DNA of 64,000 nucleotides, taken from Pseudomonas syringae. Lineage in GTDB: Bacteria; Pseudomonadota; Gammaproteobacteria; Pseudomonadales; Pseudomonadaceae. Below, piece after piece: positions 40,961-48,355 of the stretch. The translations under genes were made by a program, and so were the position numbers. Each line of letters opens with the position of its first letter. Within the stretch, counting starts at the first letter, position 1. The notes under the pieces were generated by a model. That model searched no databases, had not been told where the DNA came from, and was given only the letters and a program-made list of their open reading frames with translations. Location: NCBI RefSeq assembly GCF_000737245.1, contig NZ_JPQU01000023.1, positions 186,001-250,000 on the forward strand, in the 5' to 3' direction.

Positions 40961-41050
40961 GTGGGAGCGAATTCATTCGCGAAGGCGATGTAAAAGCCGA
41001 TGAAGATGCATCGACTGGACTTACCCATTCGCGAATGAATTCGCTCCCAC
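40961..41050. repeat. REP doublet (REPIN-like), GCGAATTCATTCGC stem class
   Basis: GTGGGAGCGAATTCATTCGC and GCGAATGAATTCGCTCCCAC are exact inverse ends. A separate GGACCGGCTTTGGCCGG fragment follows at about 41063. Confidence 0.88.
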
Positions 41051-41111: not shown

Positions 41112-41699
41112 TTACGACGGCCGCAAACCCTCGATATGCTGATACTCAAGCCCCAACTTTGCCGCCATCTGCTCGGCTTTGCGCAAGCGAATCGGCCCAC
41201 TTTCAATATCGATCAGCAGCCCCGGGCAGTTGAATGGGCTATCTGAAGGCATAGCCTTTACCCGGCCATCGGTCATCACCAGCACACGCTGCTGTTCAGA
41301 CGGATGTTTTCTCCTGCGCTGTTCAAGCCATTCGCCCGCCTGCTCGAATGCGACCATTAGCGGCGTTCCCCCGCCAGCGCCCAATTCGTCCAGCCATGGC
41401 ATTAACGCTCTGGAAGCCTTGAGGCCCTGATGTTGCCAGCGTGGCGCGTTGCCGTTGGCGGTCAACAGCGCCAGGCGAACACGTCGCCGATAAGCATCGT
41501 CGAACACTTGCGCCAGCAACCCCTTGGCTTGGCTCAAGGCCTGATGGCGCTTGGTGGAAGCGGAGGCATCAACAATCAGCAGCCACAGTTCCTTGGCCTG
41601 CTGACTGCGGGGCTGGCGGATCAGATCATTTCGAGATTTCGGGCGGCCGCGCAACAAGGTTGGCAACCAGGCGATAGCACCAGCAGCACCATGGCGCAC
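41112..41699 (-). CDS. von Willebrand factor A domain of a ChlD-type chelatase medium subunit
   Basis: vWA domain that in Mg/Co chelatases bridges the AAA+ small subunit and the large subunit. Residues 38-50 (LWLLIVDASASTK) hold the MIDAS motif DxSxS, followed by GAGGGTPLMVAFEQA (MIDAS threonine) and VLVMTDGRVK. The first conventional start is a GTG at 41699 with only a weak ribosome site, but the reading frame is open upstream to 41793 and merges in -1 phase with the end of the chlI gene at A_AAA_AAG. I therefore think most product is a 563-aa fusion made by frameshifting, with this reading frame as its C-terminal 223 residues; independent translation from the GTG is the alternative. Confidence 0.88.
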   Translation of the reverse strand: MRHGAAGAIAWLPTLLRGRPKSRNDLIRQPRSQQAKELWLLIVDASASTKRHQALSQAKGLLAQVFDDAYRRRVRLALLTANGNAPRWQHQGLKASRALMPWLDELGAGGGTPLMVAFEQAGEWLEQRRRKHPSEQQRVLVMTDGRVKAMPSDSPFNCPGLLIDIESGPIRLRKAEQMAAKLGLEYQHIEGLRPS

Positions 41700-41741
41700 A
41701 GTGCCGGTTTTACCACCAGGGAGCTTGCCGGGCCGGGGTCT

Positions 41742-41789
41742 GGCATCCGTGCCCGATGCAGCACGAGGACGGATGCCTAGGGCTTTTTT
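41742..41789 (-). other. Programmed -1 ribosomal frameshift signal (chlI to vWA frame)
   Basis: On the minus strand the chlI frame ends CCA AAA AAG CCC TAG. A_AAA_AAG (41789-41783) is the strongest known bacterial -1 slippery heptamer. After a 5-nt spacer a perfect 9-bp stem GGCATCCGT/ACGGATGCC begins (41777-41769 with 41750-41742, 18-nt loop), inside the normal distance for a stimulatory hairpin. Slippage continues into the vWA frame with no intervening stop. No strong Shine-Dalgarno-like stimulator was seen upstream. Confidence 0.8.
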
Positions 41790-42802
41790 GGCCAGCTGGG
41801 TACTTCACGACGGGCGCCAGTCGCCATGGGCTGTGCCGGTAACTGGCCCCAACTGCCCTGCCCCTGATCTTGCTGTGACGCGTTACGTGGCGCAGATTGT
41901 GGTGCGTTGTCTTGCGACGCGGATTCGTCCCGAGGCGGCGTGCTGTTGCGACGTCTGTGGCGCAAGGCAAACTCAGCCACCGCGTCGATATCCTGCTCGG
42001 CGATGGCCGTCACACCGCGCCAGGCGGCATGGGCGCGAGCGGCCCTGAGCCAGACCAGATCGGCGCGCATCCCGTCCACACCAGCTGCAAAGCAACGCTC
42101 AGTGATGATGTCGAGAGAGGTGTCATCCAGTGCAATGCTGCCCAGTAGCTGCCGGGCTCGTTCGCAGCGCTGTTTCAAGGCGTCTTGCTCGCCCTGCCAC
42201 TGATCGCAGAAAGCCTGCGGATCAGCGTCAAACTCCAGACGACGACGAATGATCTGTCCACGTTGCACGGGCAAGGTCTGCCCGCTCAGCGCTACATTCA
42301 GGCCAAAACGGTCCAGCAGTTGCGGGCGTAATTCACCTTCTTCCGGGTTCATGGTGCCAATCAGCACGAAGCGCGCCGCATGCCGGTGCGAGATGCCATC
42401 GCGCTCCACCAGATTGACGCCACTGGCAGCCACGTCCAGCAGCAAATCAACCAGATGGTCAGCCAGCAGATTGACCTCATCGACATACAACACCCCGCCA
42501 TCGGCCTTGGCCAGCACCCCAGGTGAAAACTGCGCGCGACCTTCGCCCAGTGCAGCATCCAGATCCAGCGTGCCCACCAGGCGCTCTTCCGTCGCGCCCA
42601 GTGGCAAGGTCACAAACTGACCGCTGGCCAGCAGGTCCGCCAGCCCACGGGCCAAGGTCGATTTAGCCATGCCTCGGGGGCCTTCAATCAGCACGCCACC
42701 GATTTTCGGATCGATAGCGGTGAGGCACAGGGCCAGTTTCAGCTCATCAGCGTCAACCACTGCTGCCAGCGGGAAATGAGGGGGATCGGGCAATGTCGTC
42801 AT
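41777..42802 (-). CDS. ChlI-type chelatase AAA+ small subunit (cobalt chelatase partner)
   Basis: A 341-aa AAA+ ATPase of the magnesium-chelatase ChlI type, here inferred to power cobalt insertion with CobN. Walker A is EGPRGMAKST, Walker B GGVLYVDEVNLL, and the ELRPQLLDRFGL sensor/arginine-finger region is present. The last ~50 residues are a low-complexity Gln/Ser/Pro linker (SASQDNAPQSAPRNASQQDQ), as between the AAA and vWA parts of ChlD proteins. It ends at a -1 frameshift signal, so it probably encodes both this short product and a long ChlD-like one. Its start overlaps the cobN stop (ATGA). Confidence 0.92.
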   Translation of the reverse strand: MTTLPDPPHFPLAAVVDADELKLALCLTAIDPKIGGVLIEGPRGMAKSTLARGLADLLASGQFVTLPLGATEERLVGTLDLDAALGEGRAQFSPGVLAKADGGVLYVDEVNLLADHLVDLLLDVAASGVNLVERDGISHRHAARFVLIGTMNPEEGELRPQLLDRFGLNVALSGQTLPVQRGQIIRRRLEFDADPQAFCDQWQGEQDALKQRCERARQLLGSIALDDTSLDIITERCFAAGVDGMRADLVWLRAARAHAAWRGVTAIAEQDIDAVAEFALRHRRRNSTPPRDESASQDNAPQSAPRNASQQDQGQGSWGQLPAQPMATGARREVPSWPKKP

Positions 42803-45800
42803 CAGTTCTCTTCTATATCCAGCAACAGGCCTTCCAGCGCGTCGCGGTATTCACCCGGTTCTTGCCAGAGGCCCCGCTGCTGCGCTTCAAGCATCCGTTC
42901 GGTCATGTCGCGTAATGCATCAGGGTTGTGCTGCTGGATGAAATCCCGGGTCGAGGGATCCAGCAAGTAAGCATCGGCCAGCAAGGCATACTGGTGATCG
43001 TCGATCAGCTCGGTGGTGGCATCGAAGGCAAACAGGAAATCTACCGTCGCCGCCATCTCGAAAGCACCTTTGTACCCATGGCGCTTCACACCATCGATCC
43101 ATTTTGGATTGGCGGCCCGGGAGCGGATCACCCGGTTCAGCTCCTCCTTGAGGGTGCGGATCTTCGGCAAATCGGGCTGGCTATGGTCGCCGTGATAGCT
43201 TGCTGCCTTCTGCCCGCTGAGGCTTTCAGCGGCGGCGAGCATGCCACCCTGGAATTGGTAATAGTCATTGGAGTCGAGCAGATCGTGTTCGCGGTTGTCC
43301 TGGTTCTGCACCACCGCCTGTACCTGAGAGAGCCGCTTGGCAAAGCGCTCGCGGGCTGGCGTGCCCTCGTCGCCAGCGCCATAAGCGTAGCCACCCCAGT
43401 TCAGATAGACCTCCGCCAGATCCTCGCGGCTCTGCCACAAACGAGCGTCGATGGCACCCTGCACGCCCGCGCCATAGGCGCCGGGCTTGGCACCGAAAAT
43501 ACGCCAGCCGGCTTGCCTTGAGGCTTGATCAGCGTCGACGCCCTGATTTTGCAGCGTGGCACGCTCTTCTCTCACCTTGGACGCCAGCGGGTTCAGGTCA
43601 TCCGGTTCGTCCAGGGCGGCGACCGCTTGTACGGCGGCATCGAACAGGCGAATCAGATTGGCGAACGCATCGCGGAAAAATCCCGAGACCCGCAACGTGA
43701 CATCCACTCGCGGACGGTCGAGCAGGCTCAGCGGCAGAATCTCGAAATCATCTACCCGCTGACTGCCTGTAGCCCATACCGGGCGCACGCCCATCAATGC
43801 CATGGCCTGGGCGATATCGTCGCCACCGGTGCGCATAGTCGCCGTGCCCCAGACCGACAAACCGAGTTGACGTAAATGATCACCATGATCCTGTAAGTGC
43901 CTCTCCAGCAACAGATTTGCCGATTGAAAGCCGATGCGCCACGCTGTCGTGGTGGGCAGGTTACGCACATCGACCGAAAAGAAGTTACGCCCAGTGGGCA
44001 GTACGTCCAGCCTGCCGCGACTCGGCGCACCGCTAGGTCCGGCAGGCACGAAACGTCCACTCAAGGCATCAAGCAAACCCTGAATCTCGGCGGGACCACA
44101 CGCTTCGAGACGGGGCGCGACCACTTCACGCAAGCTCTCAACTATCTGATTCAACTCATTGTTATTTAAAGATAATGCATAAGAATCGTCGGTGATGATT
44201 TGCTCGATCATCTGGCTGGCATACAACTCCAGTCGCTCCCGTGCGTCCCCCGCCGTTCGCCACTGATCTGCGCTGATTTCCAGCAAAGCCTGGGGCTTGG
44301 GACCTGTCCAAGGCTCGGCGAGTTCGCAATCCAATGGATCGAAACCCAATTCGAATGCCTTGCTTAACGCTCGCAGCAAGCTCGACTGCGCGCCACGGCC
44401 ATCGCCACGAGGAATCCGCAACAAGGCCAACAGAGTGTCGACGCGCAGGCGCCCGGCGGGTGACTCCCCGAAGATATGCAGACCGTCGCGGATCTGCGAC
44501 TCCTTCAAGTCACACAGGTAAGTGTCCAGGCGCGGTAGCCAGACAGCGGCATTGTCATCCTTGAGCCCCCCGACCTTGAGAGAGCTGTCCAGCCCCAGCT
44601 CCTGGTCAATATGCGTCTCGCGAACCAGCTTGAGGATGTCCCGCTGCAACTCGAGGGCCCTGCGCGGATCCAGTAACTGGGCTTCGTAATACTCGTCCGC
44701 CAGCAGCTCCAGGTCGCGTAGTGGTCCGTAGGTTTCAGCTCGGGTCAGCGGCGGCATCAGGTGATCGATGATCACCGCCTGAGTGCGACGCTTGGCCTGC
44801 GCACCCTCGCCCGGATCATTGACGATGAACGGGTAGATGTTAGGCATCGCGCCAAGAATCGCATCCGGCCAGCAAGTTTCTGACAGCCCGACGCCCTTGC
44901 CCGGCAGCCACTCGAGGTTGCCATGCTTGCCCACGTGCACCACCGCATGCGCGCCGTAGGCTTTGCGCAGCCAGAAATAGAACGCCAGATAGCCATGAGG
45001 CGGAACCAGATCCGGGTCGTGGTAGACCGCACTGGCATCCACCTGATAACCCCGGGCAGGCTGAATGCCGACGAAGGTCAGCCCAAAGCGCAACCCGGCG
45101 ATCATCATCCGGCCGCTGCGAAACATCGGATCGGCTTGCGGCGCACCCCAGCGGGCAATCACCGCATCCCGGTTAGCGGCGGGCAATTGCTCGAAAGCCG
45201 CCGCGTACTCTTCCAGCGCCATGCTTTGCTCGCAAGGGCGAAGATCAATGCTGTCCAGATCGTTGGTCACGCCGCCCAGCAATTGATGAATCAGCGCGGT
45301 GCCGGTATCCGGCAAATCTGCCACCGGGTAGCCGGTGCTTTGCATGGCCCGCAGGATGTTCAGGGCGGCCGCCGGGGTATCCAGACCGACGCCGTTGCCA
45401 ATCCGACCGTCCCGGGTCGGGTAATTGGCGAGAATCAAGGCGACGCGCTTGTCCGCATTCGGTAAGCGGCCGAGCAGAGCCCAGCGCCGGGCCAGCTCGG
45501 CAACAAAATCCATACGCTCCGGCTGAGCCCGATAGCAGACCACATCCGATTGGCTACGCTCGCTTCGCCAGGCCAGGTCCTTGAAGCTGATAGGCCGACT
45601 GATGATGCGGCCGTCCAGTTCCGGCAAGGCAATGTGCATCGCCAGATCCCGAGCGCCCAAGCCTTGTTCGCTGGCGCGCCAGCCGGGCTCGTTGTCCTGA
45701 GCGCAAATCGCTTGAATGACCGGGATATTGCGCCGAAACGGCCGCATGTGCGGCGCTTCGGGGCTGGATTGGGCGAAGCCGGTGGTATTGAGAATCAGCT

Positions 45801-46578
45801 CGCAGCCGACATCATCCAGCCAGTCCTCGACCACTCGCGAACAACCCGCCTCCTTGAGGCTGGCCACGGCGATCGGCAGAGGATTCAAACCCTGTGCCTG
45901 CAATCGTTCACAGAAAACATCGATGAATGCGGTATTGGCGGCCTGTAAGTGCGAGCGATAAAACAACAGCGCCACGACCGGCTGGCCTGCGCACCACTGC
46001 CCTTGCCAGACAGCAGGATCACTGCTGACCCCTTGGGGATGATAAACAGCGGTGCGCGGCAGCGGCTGCGGCTCAGACCATGGATAGTCTCGACCCAGCA
46101 TGCGGCTGGCAAGGCAACGATAGAAATCCAGCGCGTTGTGCATCCCGCCTTGTCGCAGGAACTGCCAGAGTCGATGGCAGTCCTCGGCGGGCGCGGTGCT
46201 GCGCTCTTCCAGCTCAGGGTCCGGGTTGTCACAACCGGGCACCATGATGATCTGCACACCGCGGGCGGCAAGTTCCCCGAGACGCTCGACCCCATAACGC
46301 CAGTAACCCATCCCGCCATGCAGCGAGATGAAGATCACCTTGGCATGTTGCAGCACGTCCTCGACGTATAGATCCACCGAGGCATGATTCTGTACCTGCA
46401 TGGGGTTAGCCAGACGCAGACTCGGGTAGTCATCAGGGAGTTGCTGCGCTGCCTCGGCCAGGAGTGCCAGGCTCGAATCGCCACTGCAGAGAATCACCAG
46501 CTCGGCGGGCGTCTGCCCAAGGTCGGCAATATTGTCGTCCGGGACAAATCCACCGGGCTGGGTTCTCAGTAGATGCAT
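42802..46578 (-). CDS. cobN: Cobaltochelatase large subunit CobN
   Basis: Large subunit of the aerobic cobalt chelatase that inserts Co2+ into hydrogenobyrinic acid a,c-diamide. The 1258-aa protein shows [18 protein letters not shown] near the N-terminus, the family signature [21 protein letters not shown] in the middle (given here as [14 protein letters not shown]) and a C-terminal [21 protein letters not shown]. Size is usual for CobN. It starts 3 bp after the cobW stop and overlaps chlI, forming one cobW-cobN-chlI-chlD operon under the minus-strand cobalamin riboswitch. Confidence 0.97.
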   Translation of the reverse strand: [1258 protein letters not shown]

Positions 46579-46581
46579 GGG

Positions 46582-47646
46582 TCAGCCAGCAAGCGCAGCG
46601 CGCAATTGAGCTTCAAGGGCGGCGGCGTCCAGTTTCTGGCCGATCAGCACCAGATGGGTAGCGCGTTCTTCATCGGCGCTCCAGGCCCGATCAAAGTGCT
46701 TGTCGAAACGAGTGCCCACGCCCTGGATCAGCAGGCGCATGGGTTTGCCCGGAATCGCCGCGAAGCCTTTGACCCTCAGAATGCCGTGCTGCACCACCAA
46801 CTGAGTCAACGCGTCGAGCAGCAAGCTTTCATCGGCTTGCGGCAGCTTCATCGAGATGGAATCGAAGGCGTCATGATCGTGGTCGTCATGATCATCGCCT
46901 TCATGGTGATCGTGGTGAGTCTTGCGGCCGTCGATGTGCTGCTCTGACTCCGCCCCCAGGCCCAACAGGACATTGATCGGCAAACGACCGCTGCTGGCTT
47001 CGATGACCTTGACCGCTGGCGGCAGCTCTTCAGACACCTCGGCACGCACAGCGGCCAGGCCTGCCGCATCAATCATGTCGGCCTTGTTGAGAATCACCAG
47101 ATCAGCACTGGCCAATTGGTCAGCAAACAGCTCGTGCAGAGGCGATTCGTGGTCCAGATTCGGGTCGAGCTTACGTTGCGCGTCAACCTGATCAGGGAAC
47201 GCAGCGAAAGTACCGGCCAGCACCGCGGGGCTATCAACCACGGTAATCACCGCATCAACCGTGCAGGCGTTGCGGATTTCCGGCCACTGAAAAGCCTGAA
47301 CCAGGGGTTTGGGCAGTGCCAGGCCCGATGTTTCGATAAGAATATGATCCAGATCGCCACGGCGGGCGACCAGCTCGCGCATCACCGGGAAGAACTCTTC
47401 CTGCACCGTGCAGCACAGGCAGCCGTTGGCCAGTTCGTACACGCGGCCGACCGCTTCTTCTTCGCTGCAGCCAATGGTGCACTGCTTGAGGATTTCGCCG
47501 TCGATACCCAGCTCGCCAAACTCGTTGACGATCACTGCGATGCGCCGGCCTTCGGCGTTGTCGAGCATGTGTCGCAGCAGGGTGGTTTTGCCCGAGCCGA
47601 GAAAGCCGGTGACGATGGTGACGGGGAGCTTGGCCAGTGTTTTCAT
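46582..47646 (-). CDS. cobW: CobW-type metal-chaperone GTPase
   Basis: A 354-aa G3E P-loop GTPase thought to deliver cobalt to the chelatase. The P-loop is TGFLGSGKTTLL; the metal-binding CxCC motif lies in NGCLCCTVQ; VILNKADM is the guanine-specificity NKxD motif. A histidine/aspartate-rich stretch (THHDHHEGDDHDDHDHDAFD, about residues 245-264) is a likely metal-loading region, and the C-terminal CobW_C domain follows. The ATG at 47646 gives the usual N-terminus; the frame extends 57 bp upstream. First gene of the operon behind the minus-strand riboswitch. Confidence 0.95.
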   Translation of the reverse strand: MKTLAKLPVTIVTGFLGSGKTTLLRHMLDNAEGRRIAVIVNEFGELGIDGEILKQCTIGCSEEEAVGRVYELANGCLCCTVQEEFFPVMRELVARRGDLDHILIETSGLALPKPLVQAFQWPEIRNACTVDAVITVVDSPAVLAGTFAAFPDQVDAQRKLDPNLDHESPLHELFADQLASADLVILNKADMIDAAGLAAVRAEVSEELPPAVKVIEASSGRLPINVLLGLGAESEQHIDGRKTHHDHHEGDDHDDHDHDAFDSISMKLPQADESLLLDALTQLVVQHGILRVKGFAAIPGKPMRLLIQGVGTRFDKHFDRAWSADEERATHLVLIGQKLDAAALEAQLRAALAG

Positions 47647-47769
47647 GGGATGCCCTTTGGCAATGCGGCGGGCAAACGGGACGAAAACCCTGGGCAATGG
47701 CACAAGGATCGATTCGCCACCGGATCACCCCGCCCGGTTGTAGTGAGAATTCGTCGGGCACATGGCCCG

Positions 47770-47964
47770 GATCGAGGCAGGTCTCCTGGCTTGCGGCGCT
47801 CCCACGTCTATCTTGGGAGCCATCGTTGCGCCTTCCCGCGCTTGGCAGTGGCTGTGCAACGATCATGACCGGTACAGTTGCGGGGGCAGCCGCGGCATTA
47901 CCGCGTTCCCTTCTTAGCTCCTTGCCGCCTGGCTGAACTGAATAGGCGGCCGGAGAACCTCGAA
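47770..47964 (-). ncRNA. Cobalamin riboswitch upstream of cobW
   Basis: Read on the minus strand, the conserved core GCTGCCCCCGCAACTGTA is followed by GCCACTGCC and AAGCGCGGGAAGGCG, and at the 3' end the B12 box AAGCCAGGAGACCTGCC (47776-47794). These are the hallmark blocks of the adenosylcobalamin-sensing aptamer. It lies about 125 bp before the cobW start and should repress the cobW-cobN-chlID operon when cobalamin is plentiful. Confidence 0.95.
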
Positions 47965-47970
47965 CCCGCA

Positions 47971-48013
47971 AGGCTACGCAGTGGTCGCTGGCAGGTCAAT
48001 CAACTGATTGACG
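47971..48013. promoter_or_regulatory. Shared divergent promoter core with 18-bp palindrome
   Basis: GTCAATC-AACT-GATTGAC (47995-48012) is a perfect dyad whose arms supply a -35-like TTGAC on each strand. On the minus strand TTGACC (47999-47994) is 17 bp from TAGCCT (47976-47971), placing a start right before the cobW riboswitch. On the plus strand TTGACG (48008-48013) points to the other riboswitch, with a weaker -10. Promoter assignment is inferred. Confidence 0.5.
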
Positions 48014-48045
48014 TTCTGCACGGCACCATGCTCTCCTACGCACCT

Positions 48046-48245
48046 TGTTACGGGTGCCCTTCACAGGGTGAAACGGGAAACCGGTGCGTTCAAGCCTCAA
48101 GCTTGTGCAAGTCCGGCGCTGCCCCCGCAACGGTAAGCGAGTGAAGAGTCAGATCCACTGTGCCGATCAACGGCATGGGAAGGTGACTCTTGCAGGTTGA
48201 ACGTTCTGCGTTCCGCCCCTCGCAAGCCCGGAGACCGGCCCGACA
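48046..48245 (+). ncRNA. Cobalamin riboswitch upstream of cbtB
   Basis: Plus-strand sequence GGGAAACCGGTG, then GCGCTGCCCCCGCAACGGTA, CCACTGTGCC, GGGAAGG and the B12 box GCAAGCCCGGAGACCGGCC (48222-48240) fit the cobalamin aptamer in order and spacing. It ends about 115 bp before cbtB and should shut off the cbtB-cbtA-cobE-cobM operon in the presence of the cofactor. Confidence 0.95.
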
Positions 48246-48355
48246 TACAGTTATAACTAACCCCGCGGTGGGCGGGCGCTGTTGAACCCTGCTGACTTTC
48301 GTCAGCGGGCTACGCATGCGCTTGCTCACTTGCCGACAGTCAAGAGGGACATGCC

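Follow-up and report, generated by a model that had tools for sequence, protein, structure and literature searches.

A conserved, predicted -1 frameshift signal in chlD of a Pseudomonas syringae cobalamin locus, and a probable signal of opposite polarity in Marinomonas

The window, a 64,000-nucleotide (nt) stretch of Pseudomonas syringae DNA (contig NZ_JPQU01000023.1 of assembly GCF_000737245.1, positions 186,001 to 250,000), contains a neighborhood concerned with B12 and cobalt. Within it, a ChlI-like reading frame is continued in the -1 frame by a vWA-encoding frame. The features of the locus, in window coordinates, are as follows.

41112..41783, minus strand: -1 frame, 223 codons; linker and vWA domain, the C-terminal part of a predicted 563-aa medium subunit
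41697..41699, minus strand: GTG, the first ATG, GTG or TTG of the vWA frame, 28 codons in; its position is not conserved in relatives
41742..41777, minus strand: predicted stimulatory hairpin; 41777-41769 pairs with 41750-41742 (9 bp), and further in 41767-41764 pairs with 41755-41752
41777..41779, minus strand: zero-frame stop codon TAG, one codon past the heptamer; same spacing in 138 of 140 loci
41778..41782, minus strand: spacer CCCTA (5 nt) from heptamer to hairpin
41783..41789, minus strand: slippery heptamer A_AAA_AAG, in phase (zero-frame codons AAA and AAG)
41777..42802, minus strand: chlI-like zero frame, 341 aa; putative small subunit with AAA domain and AAA lid, the 5' part of a predicted frameshifted chlD
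42802..46578, minus strand: cobN, large subunit of cobaltochelatase (TIGR02257, above cut-off)
46582..47703, minus strand: cobW (TIGR02475, above cut-off)
47759..47977, minus strand: cobalamin riboswitch upstream of cobW-cobN-chlD
48035..48257, plus strand: second, divergent cobalamin riboswitch, preceding cbtB, cbtA, a cbiG C-terminal-type gene and cobM

The TGA of cobN and the ATG of the chlI frame share one nucleotide (TGATG). A TIGR02442 search of the draft genome (109 contigs) detected no second ChlI-type gene, returning the locus itself and four weak AAA matches (E of 7.5e-7 or worse), and searches of the same contigs for CobT and for CobS yielded no match. Together with CobN, CobW and the upstream riboswitch, these results fit a cobalt chelatase; an earlier note on this DNA had proposed that the locus works with CobN.

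The zero frame closes with CCA AAA AAG CCC TAG, its protein ending in P-K-K-P, and the -1 frame, which reads GCC CTA GGC ATC CGT from 41783, stops at a TAA (41114-41112). Slippage on the heptamer is predicted to join 340 residues to 223, producing a protein of 563 aa. Coordinates, phase, the 5-nt gap, the 9-bp stem and this product length were all reproduced on the minus strand as the note had described them. The 341-aa half matches the Pfam families AAA_5, AAA_lid_2 and Mg_chelatase, as well as NCBIfam TIGR02442 and TIGR02030 (both below their cut-offs), and the 223-aa half matches VWA_2 and positions 459-585 of TIGR02442. Scanned separately, the halves score 414 and 64 bits against TIGR02442, for which the cut-off of 779 bits applies to the whole protein, and their best stretches (88-342 and 459-585) lie in register. 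The closest solved structures by sequence are ChlI/BchI (6l8d, 8osf, 1g8p) and, in 2x31, the chain of the 60-kDa subunit. The magnesium chelatase subunits ChlI/BchI and BchD in these entries are sequence homologues of the two halves but are separate proteins (38-kDa and 60-kDa in the entry names), unlike the predicted single gene of the window.

We scored this arrangement in 80 named loci and in loci from genus-, family- and order-level searches, dropping the window's own genome and counting the window once. The loci come from two collections, so one species may be counted twice; 131 of the 140 105-nt windows are distinct. Of the 199 genomes sampled in the genus, 198 have a match, nine of them weak (E of 5e-8 or worse), so that the gene is counted in 189 of 199 genus genomes, including that of the window. 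Among the 202 scored loci, the best vWA match lies in the -1 frame in 155, a single fused frame is present in 40, all in outgroups, and 7 have no scorable vWA match. Contig ends cut 4 of the 162 non-fused loci, leaving 158 with flank (window included). Exact C-A_AAA_AAG occurs in 140 of these 158, other A runs (6 to 10 A's) in 17, and the last, L239, is a conventional chlI and chlD pair that falls among the 155 loci with a -1 match. In two of the 140 (L064 and L213), the contig ends 24 codons into the vWA frame.

Pseudogenes and sequencing errors typically show themselves by a frame break, and chlD might on this account simply be broken. The break, however, falls at an identical codon across relatives and both halves are under selection; we regard a broken gene as already refuted by the comparative data and assign it a negligible probability.

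The heptamer is present in phase in all 139 relatives of at least 60% identity, a set that was not chosen by the heptamer, and thus passes the conservation check that the earlier note had proposed. More broadly, a run of 6 to 10 A's lies shortly 5' of the zero-frame stop in 157 of the 158 non-fused loci, distant ones included, and in-phase A_AAA_AAG is exact in 146. The codon preceding the two lysines in these 146 loci is CCA in 124, GCA in 11, CTA in 5, TCA in 3, ACA in 2 and GTA in 1, which amounts to six codons for six amino acids, all with a final A; that final A is part of the definition of the 146, so the evidential weight rests on the 139 of 139. Lysine codons outside the slip site in 140 open reading frames (ORFs) are AAG 397 times and AAA 207 times.

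Synonymous constraint in 130 distinct ChlI-frame ORFs, which were not selected by the heptamer, reaches its maximum over three-codon windows at the slip site (0.292; next separate window, 0.241; standard deviation [sd], 0.085). The proline column there scores 0.98, against 0.30 to 0.74 in 14 other proline columns, and the lysine columns score 0.98, against 0.49 to 0.84 in other lysine columns. A scan of 80 heptamer-selected sequences has the same peak with a narrower margin (0.17; next, 0.154). The invariant heptamer of the 139 relatives and the position of the constraint peak indicate that the signal exceeds chance. The two exceptions to the usual spacing of the zero-frame stop are L032, where it directly follows AAG, and L106, where it lies seven codons on, indicating that an adjacent stop is usual yet dispensable. 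In L106, the stop beside the slip site has been lost (CCC CAG), the next stop is inside the hairpin region, and both heptamer and hairpin are kept. The draft genome has 53 detected tRNA genes, 2 of them encoding tRNA-Lys, both with the anticodon UUU; a sole tRNA-Lys is also the situation described in the cited passages of PMC5009743 for the A_AAA_AAG of Escherichia coli dnaX.

The predicted hairpin begins at the G of the TAG codon and consists of 9 bp, an internal mismatch and 4 bp. In the window, its 46 nt fold at -22.6 kcal/mol (z of -3.2), which 1 of 200 shuffles equaled; longer folds there give z values of -2.5 (66 nt; 3 of 200 shuffles) and -0.9 (101 nt; 38 of 200). Across 123 distinct sequences, the 47 nt that start 3 nt past the heptamer have a median of -28.4 kcal/mol and a median z of -4.1, with z below -2 in 99 and positive in none. 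We counted pairs in the register of the window hairpin on consensus columns of the 123 sequences. Paired cells number 1486 of 1719 in this register and 561 to 879 in registers slid by 1 to 3, although the register was taken from the same sequences and is thereby favored over the slid ones. Changes on both sides of a pair number 60, against a mean of 23 and a maximum of 32 in shuffles, which do not remove relatedness, and 19 to 44 in the slid registers. These are the compensatory changes that the note had called for; pair 27/52, for example, is C-G in 63 sequences and T-A in 32 of the 123. In 39 of the 123 sequences the first pair is disrupted, chiefly in those whose stop codon ends in A, and the inner columns pair in only about 73 to 88% of sequences. 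Synonymous constraint in the vWA frame is highest inside the hairpin (0.312; sd, 0.078).

The heptamer and hairpin also bear on slippage by RNA polymerase, which on the run of A's would cause part of the mRNA to gain or lose a base. Efficient transcript slippage needs about 8 to 9 A's, and such slippage is plausible in the relatives with 9 to 10 A's (L149, L151, L157 and L158). The run at the window has 6 A's, however, and an in-phase heptamer that ends in G, followed by a compensated RNA hairpin, fits slippage of the ribosome, making the polymerase a very unlikely source of the second product.

If the vWA domain were instead a separate subunit, it would begin at the GTG at 41699, 78 nt past the stop, by translational coupling or by reinitiation past the TAG. 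That GTG is, as the note had stated, the only GTG start before the vWA domain, although in-frame TTG leucine codons occur too. Initiation at a downstream start beside frameshifting is reported for some experiments in Antonov 2013 (PMC3711429), whose cited passages do not name the cassette. Neither the start codon nor its position is conserved, however: the first start of the vWA frame is found at scattered offsets (commonest are TTG at codon 42 in 32 of 140 loci, GTG at codon 54 in 16 and GTG at codon 36 in 12), and 21 of the 140 have an ATG among their first 66 vWA codons, so that the note's expectation of no conserved vWA start is borne out. Moreover, the -1 frame already shows protein-coding constraint in the segment ahead of the GTG. 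Between hairpin and GTG, diversity at codon positions 1, 2 and 3 is coding-like (0.35, 0.33 and 0.59 in 80 sampled sequences), and G, W and T-L residues are conserved ahead of the vWA domain. A separate vWA subunit would also leave the heptamer and hairpin unexplained, and we hold it to be improbable.

The locus is very probably a frameshifted chlD gene (fs-chlD) from which -1 programmed frameshifting would yield subunits of 341 and 563 aa, the reading that the note had put forward and that the conserved heptamer, the stem covariation and the lack of a conserved vWA start support. For some ribosomes, translation would end at 41777 and yield the 341-aa ChlI/CobS-like ATPase. Others, assisted by the hairpin 5 nt downstream, would slip by -1 on A_AAA_AAG, tRNA-Lys(UUU) re-pairing from AAA_AAG to AAA_AAA, and would read 223 more codons to make a 563-aa ChlD/CobT-like medium subunit (AAA, linker and vWA). 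Both products would act with CobN as the aerobic cobaltochelatase of B12 synthesis. The case is made by the sequence elements, their conservation and covariation and the operon context, and by searches that found no alternative subunit genes. We infer both the occurrence and efficiency of slippage in this species and cobalt as the metal of the enzyme; a cobalt-chelatase role at the locus is highly probable, if slightly less so than the frameshifted gene itself, and that the product ratio sets the stoichiometry of the complex is a guess. Two apparent genes would then be one recoded gene, which would complete the B12 cobaltochelatase where the genome search found no other small or medium subunit.

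This mechanism is already known in Pseudomonas, and the gene in the window is a further Pseudomonas orthologue of the known case; the note had mentioned frameshift-encoded subunits for chlD-type cobalt chelatases in cobalamin producers. In the cited passages, Antonov 2013 (PMC3711429) lists a magnesium-chelatase cluster of 23 -1 fs-genes, Pseudomonas included; Atkins 2016 (PMC5009743) gives A_AAA_AAR in Pseudomonas and prints the hairpin of P. protegens; and Kuznetsov 2022 (PMC9227772) places P. aeruginosa at a stage where fs-chlD supplies both the small and the medium subunit of cobalt chelatase. Frameshifting efficiencies in E. coli were 63, 40 and 10% for three cassettes from this family (PMC3711429); the measured cassettes carried 7 to 11 A's, versus 6 A's and a G at the window, and the passages cited do not name Pseudomonas as the source of one. 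As described in PMC3711429 and PMC9227772, the cluster has a -1 shift, an A-run slip site, downstream structure, a cobalt-chelatase role, and an N-terminal small subunit and a full medium subunit from one gene, all in common with the window. What the window holds is of the same sort: ChlI and vWA frames in -1 relation, a conserved in-phase A_AAA_AAR, downstream structure, fused counterparts elsewhere, and a draft genome with cobN in which a separate small-subunit gene and cobS/cobT were not found. There is no difference in kind between cluster and window. Antonov 2020 (Mol Biol Evol) reportedly treats fs-chlD, or the 'magnesium chelatase' frameshift cluster. To this the present analysis adds a broader survey, the evidence for compensatory changes, a check of the tRNA-Lys genes and the riboswitch setting.

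The signal of P. protegens resembles that of the window in its A_AAA_AAR and in a hairpin beginning CTAGGCATCCG (PMC5009743). The passage concerned calls the stem sequence not strongly conserved, whereas the sequences examined here show a largely conserved outer stem that carries compensatory changes. E. coli dnaX, as covered in the same source, likewise has A_AAA_AAG, a single tRNA-Lys and products with a common N terminus; it too has a downstream hairpin. In dnaX, however, the zero frame encodes the long product and the shift leads to the short one, the opposite of the window, where the zero frame stops one codon past the heptamer. Inspection by eye for a Shine-Dalgarno-like stimulator 5' of the window heptamer revealed no AGGAG-like run in GAAGTACCCAGCTGGCC.

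The dnaX-type arrangement, with the long product in the zero frame and an early -1 stop, is found in chlD of Marinomonas and not at the window. Elsewhere in the window's order, beyond its family, many genomes carry a single unbroken ChlD, with no second strong match of ChlI type among those listed. We infer 48 genomes to be Marinomonas, the same 48 that a family-level search around this genus recovered. A strong chlD match is present in 45 of them, including L292 with a short frame of 328 aa, and these 45 have no second ChlI-type match better than 1e-6. Among eight genomes tested, CobN is above its cut-off in all and CobS in none, with weak sub-cut-off matches in 2. In Marinomonas it is the intact frame that codes for the medium subunit, and in 38 of the 45 genomes this frame contains an in-phase G_GGA_AAG with an early -1 stop, the seven exceptions being 2 genomes of group 1 along with L287 and L289-L292. 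According to the cited passages of PMC5009743, G_GGA_AAG is highly shift-prone in E. coli.

Neither group of Marinomonas genomes is defined by a tree: group 1 comprises the 31 best matches to one Marinomonas protein (L251-L280 and L232), and group 2 comprises 7 genomes picked by the shared linker peptide PGKS (L153, L154, L281-L284 and L286). The linker of group 1 reads GAG GTN NCG CCG GGA AAG, with G_GGA_AAG in 29 of 31 and a Shine-Dalgarno-like GAGGTR just 5' of it (GAGGTG or GAGGTA) in 28 of 31. The -1 stop follows after 1 to 3 codons in 26 of 31, modestly above the 18.9 of 31 expected from the protein sequence, and after 11 or 17 codons in the other five. Nowhere in the gene is synonymous constraint higher than in this block (0.379; mean, -0.003; sd, 0.070), and its six codons were matched by 0 of 100000 random column sets of the same amino acids. 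Over 318 conserved columns, the mean share of the top codon is 0.61, and the glycine of the slip block is alone among 35 conserved glycine columns in reaching 0.96. In group 2, all 7 genomes carry CCG GGA AAG TCT elsewhere in the linker (residue 322-351), each with the -1 stop exactly 7 codons later, and the constraint peak again falls at this site (0.514; sd, 0.10). In L285 and L288, G_GGA_AAG has a -1 stop 5 codons on. The same heptamer at different linker positions in different groups suggests that the Marinomonas signal has changed place or originated repeatedly. A search for a conserved hairpin downstream found none in Marinomonas (median z, -1.1; range, -3.4 to 1.5; weak consensus of -4.0 kcal/mol).

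Codon conservation in Marinomonas at a shift-prone heptamer far exceeds the needs of the protein, and an out-of-frame stop lies close behind. Judged on sequence, G_GGA_AAG would shift ribosomes and the short product would be the small subunit. Cobalt-chelatase frameshifting thus probably exists in two opposite polarities, with Pseudomonas and its near relatives slipping to make the medium subunit and Marinomonas slipping to make the small one. No description of a reversed chlD polarity was found in the literature searched, although Antonov 2020 might contain one. If true, the reversed arrangement would explain the source of the small subunit in genomes with an intact fused chlD, and selection would be maintaining two products of one gene while the direction of the shift changes, as passages of PMC5009743 describe for dnaX, which occurs in both polarities.

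Of all 40 fused loci, 7 have A_AAA_AAR in phase and a -1 stop no more than 8 codons on, whereas codon usage predicts 2.1. Among the 31 fused loci outside Marinomonas, 9 carry A_AAA_AA(A/G) or G_GGA_AA(A/G) in phase within the linker. Three of the fused genes outside Marinomonas (L161, L168 and L237) carry an in-phase linker A_AAA_AAA with a -1 stop 1 to 2 codons later, and these may, on their sequences, be further reversed cases.

Two other structures were observed. In L219 (G175:C1:2217000-2223500), from a genome of the same genus as the window, cobN runs on into the chlI frame as a single 1582-aa open frame in which the slip site is retained, either a CobN-ChlI fusion or a sequence error. 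Directly 3' of the gene in the window, at 40961-41050, lies an inverted pair of GTGGGAGCGAATTCATTCGCGAA-type units, which we take to resemble the REP elements of Pseudomonas.
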